A stretch of DNA of 64,000 nt from Zestomonas carbonaria (lineage in GTDB: Bacteria; Pseudomonadota; Gammaproteobacteria; Pseudomonadales; Pseudomonadaceae): contig NZ_CAJFCI010000042.1 in NCBI RefSeq assembly GCF_904061905.1, forward strand, positions 1 to 64,000, given 5' to 3'. The first letter of the stretch is position 1. Each line of letters opens with the position of its first letter. Position numbers and translations under genes: made by a program. Below the pieces are notes generated by a model, which did no database searches, was not told where the DNA came from, and saw only the letters and a list, made by a program, of their open reading frames with translations. This document shows positions 10,918 to 16,440 of the stretch, piece by piece.

Positions 10918-11034
10918 GCGGTTTTCTCCATTACGACGGCTATCGGACGCCGGCATTCTACAGGCAACGGGCCAGCAAGCAGCGGATATCGATCACGGCG
11001 CTGCGACATCACAGCCCTTTACACAAAATGCAAA

Positions 11035-11056
11035 TCTTTCGCATTATGTCGCGGTT
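11035..11056 (+). promoter_or_regulatory. Putative Fur box upstream of icmP
   Basis: AAATGCAAATCTTTCGCATTAT is a near-palindrome (ATGC-AAA ... TTT-GCAT) that resembles the AT-rich 19-mer Fur operator. It lies about 50-70 bases upstream of icmP, between it and the divergent lemA. The iron-linked identity of the downstream genes supports the assignment. Confidence 0.5.
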
Positions 11057-11107
11057 TTACGTGCGCCTTCGCGCGCTCACTCATCATCCGACGTAAAGGA
11101 CCTCGCC

Positions 11108-12448
11108 ATGATTCGTATGCCCCTGGCCTCCGCCAGCCTGCTGGCTATCGCCATTTCCCTCGCCGGCTGCGGCGATGACAAAGCCCCGGCCACCCAGGCC
11201 GCCGCGCCAGCCGCTCCGGCTGCCGCCAGCGCCCCGGCCGAAGCGGCCAGCGGCAAGATCGACGAGGCCGCCGCCAAGGCGGTGGTCACTCACTACGCGG
11301 ACCTGGCCCTGGCCGTGTTCAGCGATGCCGCCAGCACCGGCAAGGCCCTCCAGGCCGCGATCGACGCCTTCCTCGCCAACCCCACCGCCGAAACCCATCA
11401 GGCCGCCAAGGATGCCTGGCTGGCCGCCCGCGTGCCCTACATGCAGACCGAAGTGTTCCGCTTCGGCAACGCCGTGGTGGACGACTGGGAAGGTCAACTG
11501 AACGCCTGGCCGCTGGACGAGGGCCTGATCGACTACGTCGCCGAAGGCACCGCCGAGGCCCAGGGCAACCCGGCCGCCAAGGCCAACATCATCGCCAACA
11601 CCGAGATCCAGGTTGGCGAAGACAAGATCGACGTCAGCGAGATCACCGGCGAGAAACTGGCCGAACTGAACGAACTGGGCGGCTCCGAAGCCAACGTCGC
11701 CACTGGCTACCACGCCATCGAATTCCTGCTCTGGGGCCAGGACCTGCACGGCACCGAAGCCGGCGCCGGCGAGCGGCCGTACACCGACTACGTGGTCGGC
11801 GAAGGCGCCACCGGTGGCCACAACGAACGCCGCCGCACCTACCTGAAGGCCGTCACCGACCTGCTGGTCCAGGACCTGGACTGGATGGTCGGCCAGTGGC
11901 AAGCGGGCGTCGCCGACAACTACCGCGCCAAGCTGGAAGCCGAACCGGCGGAAAGCGGCCTGCGCAAGATGCTGTTCGGCATGGGCAGCCTGTCCCTCGG
12001 CGAACTGGCCGGCGAGCGCATGAAGGTCGCCCTGGAGGCCAACTCCACCGAAGACGAGCATGACTGCTTCAGCGACAACACCCACAACTCGCACTTCTAC
12101 AACGGCAAGGGCATCCGCAACGTCTACCTCGGCGAATACAAGCGCGTCGACGGCAGCACCGTGACCGGTCCGAGCCTGTCCTCGCTGGTCGCCAAGGTCG
12201 CGCCGCAGGTCGACGAGACCCTCAAGGCCGACTTCGCCGATACCGAGAAGAAGCTGCAGGCCCTGGTGGACAGCGCCAACAACGGCCAGCACTTCGACCA
12301 ACTGATCGCCCCGGAGAACGAAGCCGGTCAGCAGATCATCCGCGACGCCATCGCCGCACTGGTCAAGCAGACCAGCGCCATCGAACAGGCCGCCAGCGCC
12401 GTCGGCATCACCGACCTGCAGCCGGATACCGCCGATCACGAATTCTGA
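11108..12448 (+). CDS. icmP: Imelysin-family lipoprotein IcmP
   Basis: This 446-residue lipoprotein has a signal sequence ending in the lipobox LAGC (Cys21), an Ala/Pro-rich linker, and an imelysin (peptidase M75) domain. The family GxHxxE motif is present as GYHAIEFLLWG with His202 and Glu205, the likely metal site. The P. aeruginosa homologue was described as an insulin-cleaving metalloproteinase and is also implicated in iron handling; imelysins such as EfeO/EfeM bind iron. The ATG at 11108 follows AAAGGA. A terminator separates it from the three related genes downstream. Confidence 0.93.
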   Translation: MIRMPLASASLLAIAISLAGCGDDKAPATQAAAPAAPAAASAPAEAASGKIDEAAAKAVVTHYADLALAVFSDAASTGKALQAAIDAFLANPTAETHQAAKDAWLAARVPYMQTEVFRFGNAVVDDWEGQLNAWPLDEGLIDYVAEGTAEAQGNPAAKANIIANTEIQVGEDKIDVSEITGEKLAELNELGGSEANVATGYHAIEFLLWGQDLHGTEAGAGERPYTDYVVGEGATGGHNERRRTYLKAVTDLLVQDLDWMVGQWQAGVADNYRAKLEAEPAESGLRKMLFGMGSLSLGELAGERMKVALEANSTEDEHDCFSDNTHNSHFYNGKGIRNVYLGEYKRVDGSTVTGPSLSSLVAKVAPQVDETLKADFADTEKKLQALVDSANNGQHFDQLIAPENEAGQQIIRDAIAALVKQTSAIEQAASAVGITDLQPDTADHEF

Positions 12449-12466
12449 TCGACGTCCGCGCCATCC

Positions 12467-12507
12467 AGCCGGCGCGACCCACGAGGTCGCGCCGGCTTTT
12501 TCTTTTG
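12467..12507 (+). terminator. Rho-independent terminator after icmP
   Basis: A 13-base-pair stem, AGCCGGCGCGACC / GGTCGCGCCGGCT, is followed by TTTTTCTTTT. It makes icmP largely independent of the next three genes unless read-through occurs. Confidence 0.9.
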
Positions 12508-12518
12508 CGAGTTTTCAT

Positions 12519-12584
12519 TGGTGGGCTGAAGCCCATCCTACCCGTGTCGACCCAGCCCTGTAGCCCGGATGCAATCCGGGCTAC
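12519..12584. repeat. Composite REP cassette
   Basis: A GTAGGGTGGGC-family unit in reverse orientation (TGGTGGGCTGAAGCCCATCCTA, 12519-12540) is followed by a linker and a GTAGCCCGG-family unit (12560-12584). The linker CCCGTGTCGACCCAGCCCT nearly matches the linker before 9308, so the junction itself is conserved. Confidence 0.75.
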
Positions 12585-12697
12585 CCCAACAAGCGTGGCA
12601 GCCGCGACCTTTTGCCACCTGGGCCAACGCGAATTCATCTTATTTAAAACACGTTAGCCTGCTAAGCTTGCCCGCCCATACCTTCTGGATCGTCCCG

Positions 12698-14116
12698 ATG
12701 CGCACCCCGCTCCGCCGCCTTTCGCTCCTGCTGCTGACCCTGGGTCTGGCGGCTTGCGACCAGGCGCCGCGTTTCGACCGGGCCGAACCCGGCGAGGCCC
12801 TGTCGGCCGGAGCTGCCAGCGTCCGCCAGTACGACCAGAATGCGTTTTCCCAGCCTTCGGCCAACCTGTCCGGCGAGCGGCGCCTGGACTTCGCCGTGGG
12901 CAACAGCTTCTTCCGCAATCCCTGGGTCATCGCGCCGTCCACCACCACGGCGCGCGACGGCCTCGGCCCGCTGTTCAACACCAACGCCTGCCAGAACTGC
13001 CACGTGCGCGACGGCCGCGGCCACCCGCCGAAGCCCGGCGCCAGCAACGCGGTGTCGATGCTGGTGCGCCTGTCGATTCCCGCCACCAGCGCCGAACAGG
13101 AACGCCTGATCGAACGCCTCGGCGTGGTGCCCGAGCCGGTCTACGGCAGCCAGTTACAGGACATGGCCAACCCCGGTTTCGCCCCCGAAGGCAGGGTCCG
13201 CGTCGATTACGAGACCCAACAAGTGCGCTTCGCCGACGGCCACGAAGTGGAGCTGCGCAAACCGATCCTGCGCATCGACCGGCTCGGCTATGGCCCTCTC
13301 CACCCGCAAACCCTGTTCTCCGCGCGCGTCGCCCCGCCGATGATCGGCCTCGGCCTGCTCGAAGCGATTCCCGATGAGGCCATCCTCGCCAACGCCGAGG
13401 CCCAGCGGCGCAGCGGCAGCGGCGTCGCCGGCCAGCCCAACCGGGTCTGGGACGACGCCAGCGGGCGGACCGTGCTCGGCCGCTTCGGCTGGAAGGCCGG
13501 CCAACCGAGCCTCGACCAGCAGAACGCCCACGCCTTCTCCGCCGACATGGGCCTGACCACCAGCCGGTTGCCCCACGACGAATGCACGGAGGCGCAAGCC
13601 ACCTGTCGCGCAGCGCTCAACGGCGGCGTGCCGGAAGTCAGCGACAACATCATGCGCCTGGTGCTGTTCTACACCCGCAACCTCGGCGTACCGGCCCGCC
13701 GCACCGTGGACGATCCCCAGGTGCTGCGCGGCAAGGGCCTGTTCCACCAGGCCGGCTGCGCGCAGTGCCACACCCCGCAGTTCACCACCGCCGCCGATGC
13801 CGCCGAGCCGGAACTGGCGGGACAGGTGATCCGCCCCTACACCGACCTGCTGCTGCACGACATGGGCGAAGGACTGGCCGACGGCCGCCCCGAGTTCCAG
13901 GCCAGCGGCCGCCAATGGCGCACCCCACCGCTGTGGGGCATCGGCCTGACCGAGACGGTCACCGGCCATACCCAGTTCCTCCACGACGGCCGCGCCCGCA
14001 ACCTGCTGGAAGCCATCCTCTGGCACGGCGGCGAGGCGGAGGCGGCCAGGCAACAGGTCCTCCAGTTCGACGCCGGGCAGCGCAGCGCGCTACTGGCCTT
14101 CCTGAATTCCCTATAA
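12698..14116 (+). CDS. Di-heme DUF1111 lipoprotein (thiol oxidoreductase-like)
   Basis: This 472-residue lipoprotein has the lipobox LAAC (Cys20) and two c-type heme attachment sites, Cys98-Gln-Asn-Cys101-His102 and Cys354-Ala-Gln-Cys357-His358. The layout matches DUF1111, related to di-heme cytochrome c peroxidases and often labelled thiol oxidoreductase. It would sit on the periplasmic face of a membrane and carry electrons. Ten bases separate it from a second imelysin gene, and a DUF1513 gene follows. A periplasmic iron redox or uptake role with imelysins is a reasonable inference; the substrate is unknown. No strong ribosome-binding site precedes the chosen ATG. Confidence 0.88.
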   Translation: MRTPLRRLSLLLLTLGLAACDQAPRFDRAEPGEALSAGAASVRQYDQNAFSQPSANLSGERRLDFAVGNSFFRNPWVIAPSTTTARDGLGPLFNTNACQNCHVRDGRGHPPKPGASNAVSMLVRLSIPATSAEQERLIERLGVVPEPVYGSQLQDMANPGFAPEGRVRVDYETQQVRFADGHEVELRKPILRIDRLGYGPLHPQTLFSARVAPPMIGLGLLEAIPDEAILANAEAQRRSGSGVAGQPNRVWDDASGRTVLGRFGWKAGQPSLDQQNAHAFSADMGLTTSRLPHDECTEAQATCRAALNGGVPEVSDNIMRLVLFYTRNLGVPARRTVDDPQVLRGKGLFHQAGCAQCHTPQFTTAADAAEPELAGQVIRPYTDLLLHDMGEGLADGRPEFQASGRQWRTPPLWGIGLTETVTGHTQFLHDGRARNLLEAILWHGGEAEAARQQVLQFDAGQRSALLAFLNSL

Positions 14117-14126
14117 GGAGCCGCGC

Positions 14127-15191
14127 ATGTTCCGACCGAAACTGCTGTTCACCAGCCTCGCCGCCCTCGCCCTCGGTGCCTGCTCGCCCCAGGACCAGCA
14201 GGCCCAGACCTCCGCCGCTCTGGCCCAGCAGGTGATCCTGCCGACCTACAGCCGCTGGGTCGAGGCCGACCGCCAGTTGGCCCGGAGCGCCCTGGCCTAC
14301 TGCTCCGGCAAGCTCGACCTGGCCCAGGCACGCGCCGACTTCTACGCTGCGCAGAAGGCCTGGGCCGAGCTGCAGCCGCTGATGGTCGGGCCGCTGGCCG
14401 AAGGCAACCGCGCCTGGCAGGTGCAGTTCTGGCCGGACAAGAAGAACCTGGTCGCCCGCCAGGTCGAGCAACTGCTCAAGAGCAAGCCGCAGATCGACGT
14501 CGACGTGCTGACCAAGAGCAGCGTGGTGGTGCAGGGCCTGACCGCCTACGAATACATCCTGTTCGACAGCAACATCGACCTCGCCGACGACGCCACCAAG
14601 GCCCGCTACTGCCCGTTGCTGGAAGCCATCGGCGAACGCCAGCAGCGCCTGGCCGAGGAAATCCTCGCCAGTTGGAACAGCAAGGACGGCATGCTCGAAC
14701 AACTCAGCAAGTTCCCCAACCCGCGCTACGCCGACGCCCAGGAAGCGATCGCCGAACTGCTGCGCGTGCAGGTCACCGCCATCGACACCCTGAAGAAGAA
14801 GCTCGGCACCCCGCTCGGCCGCCTCAGCAAGGGCATTCCGCAGCCGTTGCAGGCCGAGGCCTGGCGCAGCGAGGCGTCGCTCTCCAACATCGGCGCCGCC
14901 CTGGGCAGCGCCGAGGCGCTGTGGCGCGGGGCCGACAAGCATGGCATCCGCGACCTGCTGGGCAGCGACCAGAAGGAACTGGTCCAGCGCATCGACGCCG
15001 CCTACGTCGAAGCCCGCCAGAAGCTCGACGCGCTGCAGCCGCCGCTGTCCGAGCTGCTCGCCAGCGAAGCCGGCCGCCAGCAGGTGAGCGACTTCTACGA
15101 CAGCCTCAACCGCGTGCATCGCCTGCAGGAAAGCGATCTGGCCAAGGCGCTGGGCGTGCAACTCGGCTTCAACGCCAACGATGGCGACTGA
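14127..15191 (+). CDS. Second imelysin-family lipoprotein
   Basis: This 354-residue lipoprotein has the lipobox LGAC (Cys19). Its body matches the imelysin fold, but the metal motif is altered: the equivalent segment reads GLTAYEYILFD, with Tyr where the GxHxxE family has His and with Glu retained. It may bind iron differently from IcmP or act as a partner. TAAGGAG precedes the ATG, ten bases after the DUF1111 stop codon, so co-transcription is near certain. Confidence 0.86.
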   Translation: MFRPKLLFTSLAALALGACSPQDQQAQTSAALAQQVILPTYSRWVEADRQLARSALAYCSGKLDLAQARADFYAAQKAWAELQPLMVGPLAEGNRAWQVQFWPDKKNLVARQVEQLLKSKPQIDVDVLTKSSVVVQGLTAYEYILFDSNIDLADDATKARYCPLLEAIGERQQRLAEEILASWNSKDGMLEQLSKFPNPRYADAQEAIAELLRVQVTAIDTLKKKLGTPLGRLSKGIPQPLQAEAWRSEASLSNIGAALGSAEALWRGADKHGIRDLLGSDQKELVQRIDAAYVEARQKLDALQPPLSELLASEAGRQQVSDFYDSLNRVHRLQESDLAKALGVQLGFNANDGD

Positions 15192-15204
15192 GAGGTAAAC
15201 CAAC

Positions 15205-16299
15205 ATGCTGCGCCGTCACGTCTTGACCCTCGGCAGCGCCCTGTTGGGCGCACTCAGCCTCGGCGGCTGGACGCTCAGCCGCCGGGCCAAGACGCCGCTG
15301 CTGCTGTCCGCCCGTGACGACGCGGACGGCGGCCACTACGCGGTGGGCTATCGCCTGGACGGCAAGTGCGTGTTCGCCACCCCGGTCGCCCAGCGCTGCC
15401 ACGATATCGTCGAGCACCCGCACCAGCCCGTCGCCCTGTTCGTGGCCCGCCGCCCCGGCACCGAGAGCTACCTGATCGACCTGCGCGACGGCCGCCTGTT
15501 GCAGACCGTCGCCTCGCAGCCGAACCGCCATTTCTATGGCCACGCGGTGTTCCACCGGGACGGCGAATGGCTGTACGCCACCGAGAACGACACCCGCGAC
15601 CCGGGCCGTGGCGTGCTCGGCACCTATCGCTTCGACGGCGAAAGGCTCGTCCACGAAGGCGAACGGTCCACCCATGGCCTCGGCCCGCACCAGGTCAGTT
15701 GGCTGCCGGATGGCGAGACCCTGGTGGTGGCCAACGGCGGCATCCGCACCGAGGCGGAAAGCCGGGTGGAGATGAACCTCGACGCCATGGAGCCCAGCCT
15801 GGTACTGATGCGCCGCGACGGCAGCCTGCTCTCCAAGGAAACCCTGGCGCAGCAGATGAACAGCATCCGCCACCTGGCGGTCGCCGCCGATGGCACCGTG
15901 GTCGCCAGCCAGCAATACATGGGCGAGGCCCACGACCACTCCGACCTGCTGGCGATCAAGCGCCCCGGCCAGCCGTTCCAGCCCTTCCCGCTGGGCGAGG
16001 AGCAGCGCCTGGCGATGAACCAGTACACCGCCAGCGTGGCGATCCACGACGAACTGCGCCTGGTCGCCCTCACCGCGCCGCGCGGCAACCGCTTCTTCAT
16101 CTGGGACCTGGACAGCGGCGCCGTGCGCCTGGACGCGCCCTTGCCCGACTGCGCCGGCGTCGGCGCGGTCAAGGACGGCTTCGTGGTCACTTCCGGCCAG
16201 GGTCGCTGCCGCCTCTACGACTGCCGCGGCGAACGCATCGCCGTCCAGCCGCTGGAGCTGCCACCGGGGCTCTGGGACAACCACCTGCACCTGGCCTGA
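15205..16299 (+). CDS. DUF1513 periplasmic beta-propeller protein
   Basis: This 364-residue protein begins with MLRRHVLTLGSALLGALS, a twin-arginine-like start (a hydrophobic stretch preceded by Arg-Arg) that suggests export. The rest consists of WD-like or YVTN-like blades typical of DUF1513, including LIDLRDGRLL and YATENDTRDPGRG. It is the last gene of the DUF1111-imelysin-DUF1513 set, 13 bases after the previous stop codon and preceded by GAGAGG. A role in the same periplasmic iron pathway is inferred from context only. Confidence 0.85.
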   Translation: MLRRHVLTLGSALLGALSLGGWTLSRRAKTPLLLSARDDADGGHYAVGYRLDGKCVFATPVAQRCHDIVEHPHQPVALFVARRPGTESYLIDLRDGRLLQTVASQPNRHFYGHAVFHRDGEWLYATENDTRDPGRGVLGTYRFDGERLVHEGERSTHGLGPHQVSWLPDGETLVVANGGIRTEAESRVEMNLDAMEPSLVLMRRDGSLLSKETLAQQMNSIRHLAVAADGTVVASQQYMGEAHDHSDLLAIKRPGQPFQPFPLGEEQRLAMNQYTASVAIHDELRLVALTAPRGNRFFIWDLDSGAVRLDAPLPDCAGVGAVKDGFVVTSGQGRCRLYDCRGERIAVQPLELPPGLWDNHLHLA

Positions 16300-16440
16300 A
16301 CGCCGCGCGCCTTACCGGGTCGAAACAGGAAGGTGCCCATGAAGCATTGAGATCCTGTCGTCATTTTCAGCGAATGACGGCAAACATGCCTGGTTCCATA
16401 CCCAGGAAATGTACTGTGCAAATTTTTACCAACTGTACCT

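Follow-up and report, generated by a model that had tools for sequence, protein, structure and literature searches.

A four-gene imelysin, DUF1111 and DUF1513 cluster in Zestomonas carbonaria and its likely role in iron handling

A stretch of 64,000 nucleotides from Zestomonas carbonaria (contig NZ_CAJFCI010000042.1, positions 1 to 64,000; here called the window) carries four co-directional genes on the + strand, encoding imelysin 1, a DUF1111/DHOR di-haem protein, imelysin 2 and a DUF1513 protein. The cluster is a member of the known PA4370-PA4373 kind of iron-regulated, periplasmic and membrane-anchored iron-handling module. An iron role is likely, being well supported by PMC3143127 and by iron-related neighbouring genes in other genera.

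Imelysin 2 ends in a conserved acidic tail. The DUF1513 propeller has five histidines that are general to its family, and on the same face a shell of Arg, Gln, Tyr and Asp residues that, judged from the sequences, is usually kept where a tailed imelysin is present. No description of the tail, the histidines or the Arg shell was found, with no literature-wide search made for the tail. The term "DUF1513" returned no paper among open-licence PMC papers, and "DGD", "tail" and "propeller" each occur 0 times in PMC3143127.

The cluster and its known relatives

The four genes were confirmed in the window with Pfam E-values of 1e-91 and 1e-57 for the M75 imelysin domain of imelysins 1 and 2, 7e-97 for DHOR and 2e-114 for DUF1513. 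M75 is the only domain found in either imelysin, and no further imelysin or DHOR gene was found in the window's genome. A first-pass annotation of the same DNA had described two imelysin lipoproteins and a lipoprotein with two CxxCH haem sites, and these descriptions hold: the domain matches are accompanied by lipobox-like motifs and by both haem sites (Table 1). When a crude pattern was applied to uncurated starts of open reading frames (ORFs), lipobox-like motifs were seen in only 22/89 imelysin 1, 21/95 DHOR and 22/81 imelysin 2 proteins, so that outside Pseudomonas these proteins may or may not be lipidated.

In 2011, PA4370-PA4373 was described as a Fur-regulated imelysin operon of P. aeruginosa, and imelysins were split into an ICMP family (GxHxxE) and an IPPA family (GxxxxE) (PMC3143127). 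The same paper linked imelysins to iron uptake and left the mechanism open. Both types can be recognized in the window. Imelysin 1 contains GYHAIE, and GxHxxE is found in 88 of 89 homologues, the remaining one being gapped; imelysin 2 contains GLTAYE, a GxxxxE motif without the histidine. The EfeO/EfeM type proposed in the first-pass annotation is therefore replaced by one ICMP-type imelysin and one IPPA-type imelysin that has lost the histidine. As in PA4370-PA4373, which belongs to another species, the two types are accompanied by a DUF1111 di-haem gene, which in the window lies between them. The two systems differ in that PA4370-PA4373 is treated as one operon in PMC3143127, whereas the window looks like two units. 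Both imelysin types also occur in the Fur-regulated operon VC1264-VC1266 of Vibrio cholerae, a likeness drawn from the description in PMC3143127 alone.

Near relatives were sampled as the 80 nearest DUF1513 loci, of which 79 are titled Pseudomonas and one, a metagenome-assembled genome, is titled Paucimonas (best identity 87%). The four-gene order is kept in 78 of these, or in 79/81 when the window is counted, and P. aeruginosa PA7 (L050; L and G numbers are our labels for loci and genomes) has the same order as the window. In the two exceptions the contig starts shortly before the DHOR match: 0.2 kb in L101, and 1.3 kb in L058, where imelysin 1 was not found in that stretch.

The ferrous transporter EfeUOB/EfeUOB-M also combines an imelysin-fold M75 iron protein with a haem peroxidase, and EfeB is called a DUF1111 member in PMC3143127. 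However, a Pfam search of the four proteins found neither the FTR1 permease, nor the cupredoxin domain of EfeO, nor a DyP-type peroxidase like EfeB, and membership of this system was rejected. The two FTR1 genes of the window's genome sit on other contigs. One (L042, G000:C17, 3231-5129, + strand) encodes an FTR1-type permease that carries a cytochrome c domain fused to its N-terminus. The other (L043, G000:C20, 6078-7838, - strand) adjoins a gene for a PF10634 Fe2+ transport protein, forming a separate ferrous uptake system.

The tail of imelysin 2

Sequences were compared in a survey of 98 loci, consisting of 95 hand-chosen loci, the window and two Pseudomonas loci; several are cut by contig ends. 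All but two of the 95 imelysin-2 proteins terminate exactly in DGD (93/95); the exceptions end in DGDF and DGDGS. The longer pattern GF[NS]xxDGD is present in 78/95, and GFNxxDGD in 65/95. In an alignment of 81 sequences, D352, G353 and D354 are invariant; conservation of at least 85% is seen at 18 further positions, at none of which it is 100%. In all, 94 of the 6266 ORFs at the 98 loci have a DGD end, and 93 of the 94 are imelysin 2. The remaining one (L037; 199 aa, no Pfam match) lies directly before DUF1513 and ends in GSGFNSDDGD.

The only PDB match of imelysin 2 is 3pf0 (E 1.5e-14), and in the 3PF0 crystal the last six residues, 384-389, are disordered (PMC3143127). Imelysin 1 matches 7xrx (E 1.5e-197), and its tryptophans W104, W134, W209 and W264 are kept at 98-99%.

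As a control, 80 genomes of the class without a DUF1513 match were searched, yielding 9 imelysins in 6 genomes. Six of the nine lack such ends, two end in DND or DSD, and one (L221) ends in GFNADDGD. Further imelysins, from L031, L218, L220, L267 and L274, end in DGD, DND or DSD and lack the GFN portion. The tail thus characterizes imelysin 2 and related types, and DUF1513 lies next to it in most cases, though not in all. A 950-aa ORF in L159 that had the appearance of a fusion proved to be a frame artefact without CxxCH.

Histidines and shell of the DUF1513 propeller

The DUF1513 protein is modelled as a seven-bladed propeller (predicted local distance difference test score, pLDDT, 93.3). The twin arginine at residues 3-4 in the window is widely kept (R3 in 97/98, R4 in 96/98), and by this criterion the protein is a predicted substrate of twin-arginine translocation (Tat). 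The twin-arginine-like beta-propeller of the first-pass annotation is in keeping with both results.

Five histidines, H66, H113, H162, H223 and H360, are invariant in all 98 DUF1513 proteins. They occupy the same register on the inner strands of blades 1, 2, 3, 4 and 7, with residues S277 and G318 in blades 5 and 6, according to a manual reading of the model's strand list. Because they share this register, propeller geometry would line the five histidines along the axis, where they may form a metal site.

Metal sites built from axial histidines are known in seven-bladed propellers, namely carotenoid oxygenases and the CuZ site of N2O reductase. As in DUF1513, the histidines of these proteins are found on inner strands of several blades, with no sequence relation shown. 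The model matches N2O reductase in fold (Z 29), along with many unrelated propellers. The matches to hydrazine synthase and amine dehydrogenase are likewise generic for the fold, and a kinship with these enzymes was not used as evidence.

By strand position, an Arg/Gln/Tyr/Asp shell lies on the same face as the histidines. R64, R82, Q237, Y274 and D358 are each present in 97/98 loci, R222 in 95/98, and R83 and N359 in 90/98. The sole exception to each of the 97/98 residues is L038, which keeps all five histidines and has no shell. The related L237, L240 and L241 (readable in part, with one internal stop) likewise keep the histidines and lack the shell.

L038 and L255-L257 are orphan DUF1513 relatives in which the five histidines are kept where readable, the Arg shell is lost and no imelysin 2 was found. 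The genomes of the shell-less orphans are 94-99% complete (G833 is 6% contaminated), and no imelysin 2 was found in them; two are without any imelysin, and two have one imelysin 1 beside DHOR.

In a second divergent clade, L252-L254, the five histidines and R222 are kept and most of the other shell residues lost, and the full cluster is present elsewhere in the genomes. G677 and G852 each have a second DUF1513 copy next to a convergent imelysin gene whose product ends in DGD; these copies keep R64, R82, R222, Q237 and Y274, lose R83 and have D358 replaced by Glu. In G796 the DUF1513 protein keeps its shell, and an imelysin pair with SFNANDGD is encoded about 70 kb away. A low-scoring match in genome G318 (L258, 28 bits) has histidine at 4/5 positions and is probably another propeller.

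The DUF1111 di-haem protein

The DUF1111 protein (472 aa) matches only the DHOR and cytochrome c models of Pfam, and both of its CxxCH motifs keep their Cys and His without exception in an alignment of 67 sequences. Its model (pLDDT 95.6) has the fold of MauG and the di-haem cytochrome c peroxidases (CCPs), so that the resemblance to di-haem peroxidases claimed by the first-pass annotation is borne out at the level of the fold. Fold comparison gave 38 CCP/MauG entries with Z 11.7-16.1 over 217-264 aligned residues. A Foldseek search with the model gave no match at E 0.001, and a profile search of the PDB gave weak matches only.

The protein is thus like the CCP, MauG and MbnH enzymes in its two CxxCH motifs and its fold (Z about 15-16 for the best entries). 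It differs from them in being longer and forming its own Pfam family, and the MauG and MbnH (TIGR04039) models do not match it at E 0.01.

Distribution and neighbouring genes

The module recurs across the phylum. DUF1513 was found above cut-off in 17/274 genomes of the class set, 98/397 of the phylum set and 159/391 of the order set, which overlap; the 95 hand-chosen survey loci were taken from these. In the 98-locus survey, profiles built from the clusters found DUF1513, the search key, in 98 loci. DHOR was present in 92 and imelysin 1 in 89; 84 loci have imelysin 2, and 8 others have a sister type of it (92 in all).

Several neighbouring genes are found repeatedly. A MauG-type CCP gene occurs in 17/98 loci and a porin gene in 8/98. 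Bacterioferritin also occurs in 8/98, a further match in L139 having been dropped by the overlap filter; in five loci (L144-L147, L163) its gene separates imelysin 1 from DHOR and is co-directional with them, and the L163 protein exceeds its equivalog cut-off. Multicopper oxidase is present in 6/98, in three of them between imelysin 1 and DHOR. A TonB receptor was considered as a standing partner and rejected, as it was seen near one locus only (L029) and was not recognized among the recurrent neighbour clusters, not all of which were typed.

Genes of FbpA type are found in 5/98 loci and genes of FbpB type in 6/98 (L185 at only 28 bits), and in 5/98 both adjoin the cluster or lie within it. 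The FbpABC-type genes are co-directional with the cluster in L034, directly after DUF1513, and in L031, inside the cluster. At the other three loci (L137, L166, L169), at least the gene for the binding protein runs against the cluster, on the other strand. The binding protein of L034 matches PDB entries 2pt1, "Iron transport protein" (5e-103), and 7li0, "Fe(3+) ABC transporter substrate-binding protein" (4e-88); the best match, 6g7n (5e-108), is named only as an extracellular solute-binding protein. The first-pass statement that there is no transporter among the four proteins holds for the window, but at these five loci genes of this type accompany the cluster.

Transcription units and other features

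A promoter-like site lies 5' of imelysin 1, and between its hexamers is a 15-bp operator dyad (Table 1). The dyad is present in all 79 upstream regions of the Pseudomonas near relatives (loci L044-L123), in one orientation or the other. The window's orientation is found in 32/79, 25 of them exact and 7 with one mismatch. In 47/79 the core is the exact reverse complement, while the flanks and the promoter remain similar. As a control, the reversed string of the forward 15-mer always has at least 5 mismatches. A TTTACA-like hexamer stands at most 16 nt 5' of the dyad in 69/79 loci. That an asymmetric core can be inverted while keeping its place suggests that it is read by a symmetric dimer. By hand count, the dyad agrees with the Fur box TGATAAT-N-ATTATCA at 10/14 fixed positions. 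The conserved operator is solid; the name "Fur" rests on PMC3143127 and is unproven for this promoter. Elsewhere in the genome the 17-mer operator is found only with 3 mismatches, in 5 places, so a regulon could not be defined.

The Pseudomonas cluster probably consists of two transcription units, icmP alone and the other three genes together, because a terminator-like hairpin and a second promoter-like block separate imelysin 1 from the rest. The gap between imelysin 1 and DHOR could be compared in 73 of the 79 loci; the other 6 were set aside because the script failed to place a DHOR gene there. A hairpin ahead of a T run is present in 58/73 gaps by a crude fold rule. The TCTTATT element of the second block is present in 59/73, against 0/73 in reversed strings, with the patterns of this block picked after viewing the sequences; the sigma-70 consensus scan did not report it. 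The palindromic GTAGCCCGGATGCAATCCGGGCTAC is also found between the two genes, at 12560.

Table 1. Positions of the cluster and its control elements in the window
Feature	Position	Strand	Remarks
Promoter-like site TTTACA-18-CATTAT	11018-11047	+	Promoter scan of the region: 2 sites, shuffles mean 0.3
Operator dyad TGCAAAT-C-TTTCGCA	11029-11043	none	15 bp, between both promoter hexamers
Imelysin 1 (ICMP/PA4370 type)	11108-12448	+	Lipobox LAGC; GYHAIE (GxHxxE) at residue 200
Terminator-like hairpin	12467-12497	+	13 pairs, after imelysin 1; region has 4 such sites, shuffles mean 4.1
Second promoter-like block GCGAATTCATCTTATT ... TGCTAAGCT	12629-12668	+	5' of the DUF1111 gene
DUF1111/DHOR di-haem c-type protein	12698-14116	+	Lipobox LAAC; CxxCH at residues 98 and 354; CCP/MauG fold
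Imelysin 2 (IPPA/PA4372 type)	14127-15191	+	Lipobox LGAC; GLTAYE (GxxxxE); C-terminal GFNANDGD
Tail codons of imelysin 2, GFNANDGD	15165-15188	+	Conserved C-terminus, 95 homologues compared
DUF1513	15205-16299	+	Twin-arginine signal; model of seven-bladed beta-propeller; 5 invariant His; Arg/Gln/Tyr/Asp shell

The locus is flanked on its 5' side by a LemA gene on the opposite strand and a GGDEF-EAL gene, and on its 3' side by a gene pair for a membrane-fusion protein and a resistance-nodulation-division (RND) pump, which we take to correspond to MexVW in P. aeruginosa. An imperfect palindrome, GTACTGTGCAAATTTTTACCAACTGTAC, at 16411-16438 lies 5' of the RND efflux pair and is possibly a regulator site.

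Proposed mechanism and alternatives

The best single mechanism combines iron handling, Fe(II) oxidation by the DUF1111 protein and handover of Fe(III) to an importer encoded elsewhere; taken jointly, these have about an even chance of being right. Low iron would derepress the cluster, and imelysin 1 would capture iron at its GxHxxE cleft. Electrons taken from Fe(II) by the DUF1111 protein would go to peroxide or a cytochrome c, which would keep the iron as Fe(III). Imelysin 2, its metal-binding histidine lost, could act as a carrier or adaptor: its flexible acidic tail, with its DGD-COO(-) end, would dock on DUF1513, once exported by Tat, at the Arg-rich face of the propeller. The five histidines might hold a metal, either iron or copper as a redox partner. 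Finally, Fe(III) would reach an inner-membrane importer that in most genomes is encoded elsewhere and in a few relatives could be the FbpABC/Fut-type ATP-binding cassette (ABC) transporter adjoining or within the cluster.

The idea that DUF1513 is an unrecognized Tat-exported metalloprotein with an axial ring of five histidines, in which the imelysin 2 tail plugs an Arg-rich rim above the ring, is more tentative; it is drawn from sequence comparison and is a possibility that we rate well below even. Of the iron-linked redox module in the first-pass annotation, the iron link stands, through PMC3143127 and the neighbouring genes, and Fe(II) oxidation by the DUF1111 protein is a step that we infer.

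Several observations weigh against this mechanism. Covariation of shell and tail is seen across only about three independent clades. In G010, imelysin 1 ends in GDGD though the DUF1513 protein of that genome is without a shell, and the DGD-tailed imelysin L221 comes from a fragmentary genome (81% complete) with no DUF1513 match. As for import, FTR1 was found in only 12/80 other DUF1513 genomes (11 above cut-off); it was therefore rejected as a general hidden importer, and no common importer is known. For the ABC genes, the NCBIfam matches fall below cut-off and carry assorted names (phosphonate, polyamine, sulfate, ferric), and the neighbour counts are raw numbers from phylogenetically non-independent loci without a random-window control. 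At the promoter, the 19-bp Fur consensus has no match with up to 3 mismatches in the window. The best stretch 5' of imelysin 1 agrees at 12/19 positions, a score equalled by 43/790 mononucleotide shuffles. What is left of the Fur-like box of the first-pass annotation is the conserved dyad.

The main alternative is that the DUF1111 protein does not oxidize iron and is instead a modifier like MauG or MbnH. Its partner would be imelysin or DUF1513, in which it would oxidize residues and so create the partner's metal site. The propellers of amine dehydrogenase and hydrazine synthase also work with di-haem proteins. In fold, DUF1111 resembles MauG/pre-MADH complexes as well as chain C of hydrazine synthase, and DUF1513 resembles the heavy chains of amine dehydrogenases as well as chain B of hydrazine synthase; moreover, for the di-haem CCP next to the cluster in L024 the closest model is that of the MbnH family, though below cut-off, and imelysin 1 has the conserved tryptophans. 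Modification is nonetheless unlikely in our view, given the generic propeller matches, the missing MauG and MbnH model matches and the fact that no modified residue is known. A defence of the envelope against peroxide, in which DUF1111 removes peroxide and the imelysins merely hold loose iron, would suit the CCP-like fold and the additional CCP and bacterioferritin genes. It is rather more improbable again, since expression is reported to be Fur-controlled, that is, to respond to low iron (PMC3143127), and the ferric-type ABC genes at a few loci point to uptake.

The imelysins could also serve another metal or ligand. IcmP is described in a review as a partner of ModA in molybdate acquisition by P. 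aeruginosa (PMC8602904), which is a further point against an iron role. However, no molybdenum gene was recognized among the Pfam-typed recurrent neighbour clusters (some clusters are untyped) and iron-related genes recur there, while EfeM, of the same superfamily as the imelysins, bound 1.3-1.4 Fe per protein after incubation (PMC9174327). Molybdate or a similar ligand therefore seems very unlikely. Least credible of all is that imelysin 1 is an insulin-cleaving protease of family M75. PA4370 was first assigned in this way, according to PMC3143127, but there the authors of the 2011 imelysin structures argue against a metallopeptidase, and we give the idea hardly any weight.

Significance

The tail, the histidines and the shell turn the question of how imelysins work into tests of single residues. 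The neighbour survey names a candidate inward route, a ferric-type ABC importer, and indicates that FTR1 cannot be the general partner. If the proposed joint between imelysin 2 and DUF1513 is real, iron or electrons would pass between an imelysin and a propeller through a tail held in a funnel, beside a MauG-like di-haem enzyme, and the cluster would represent a new kind of iron relay.

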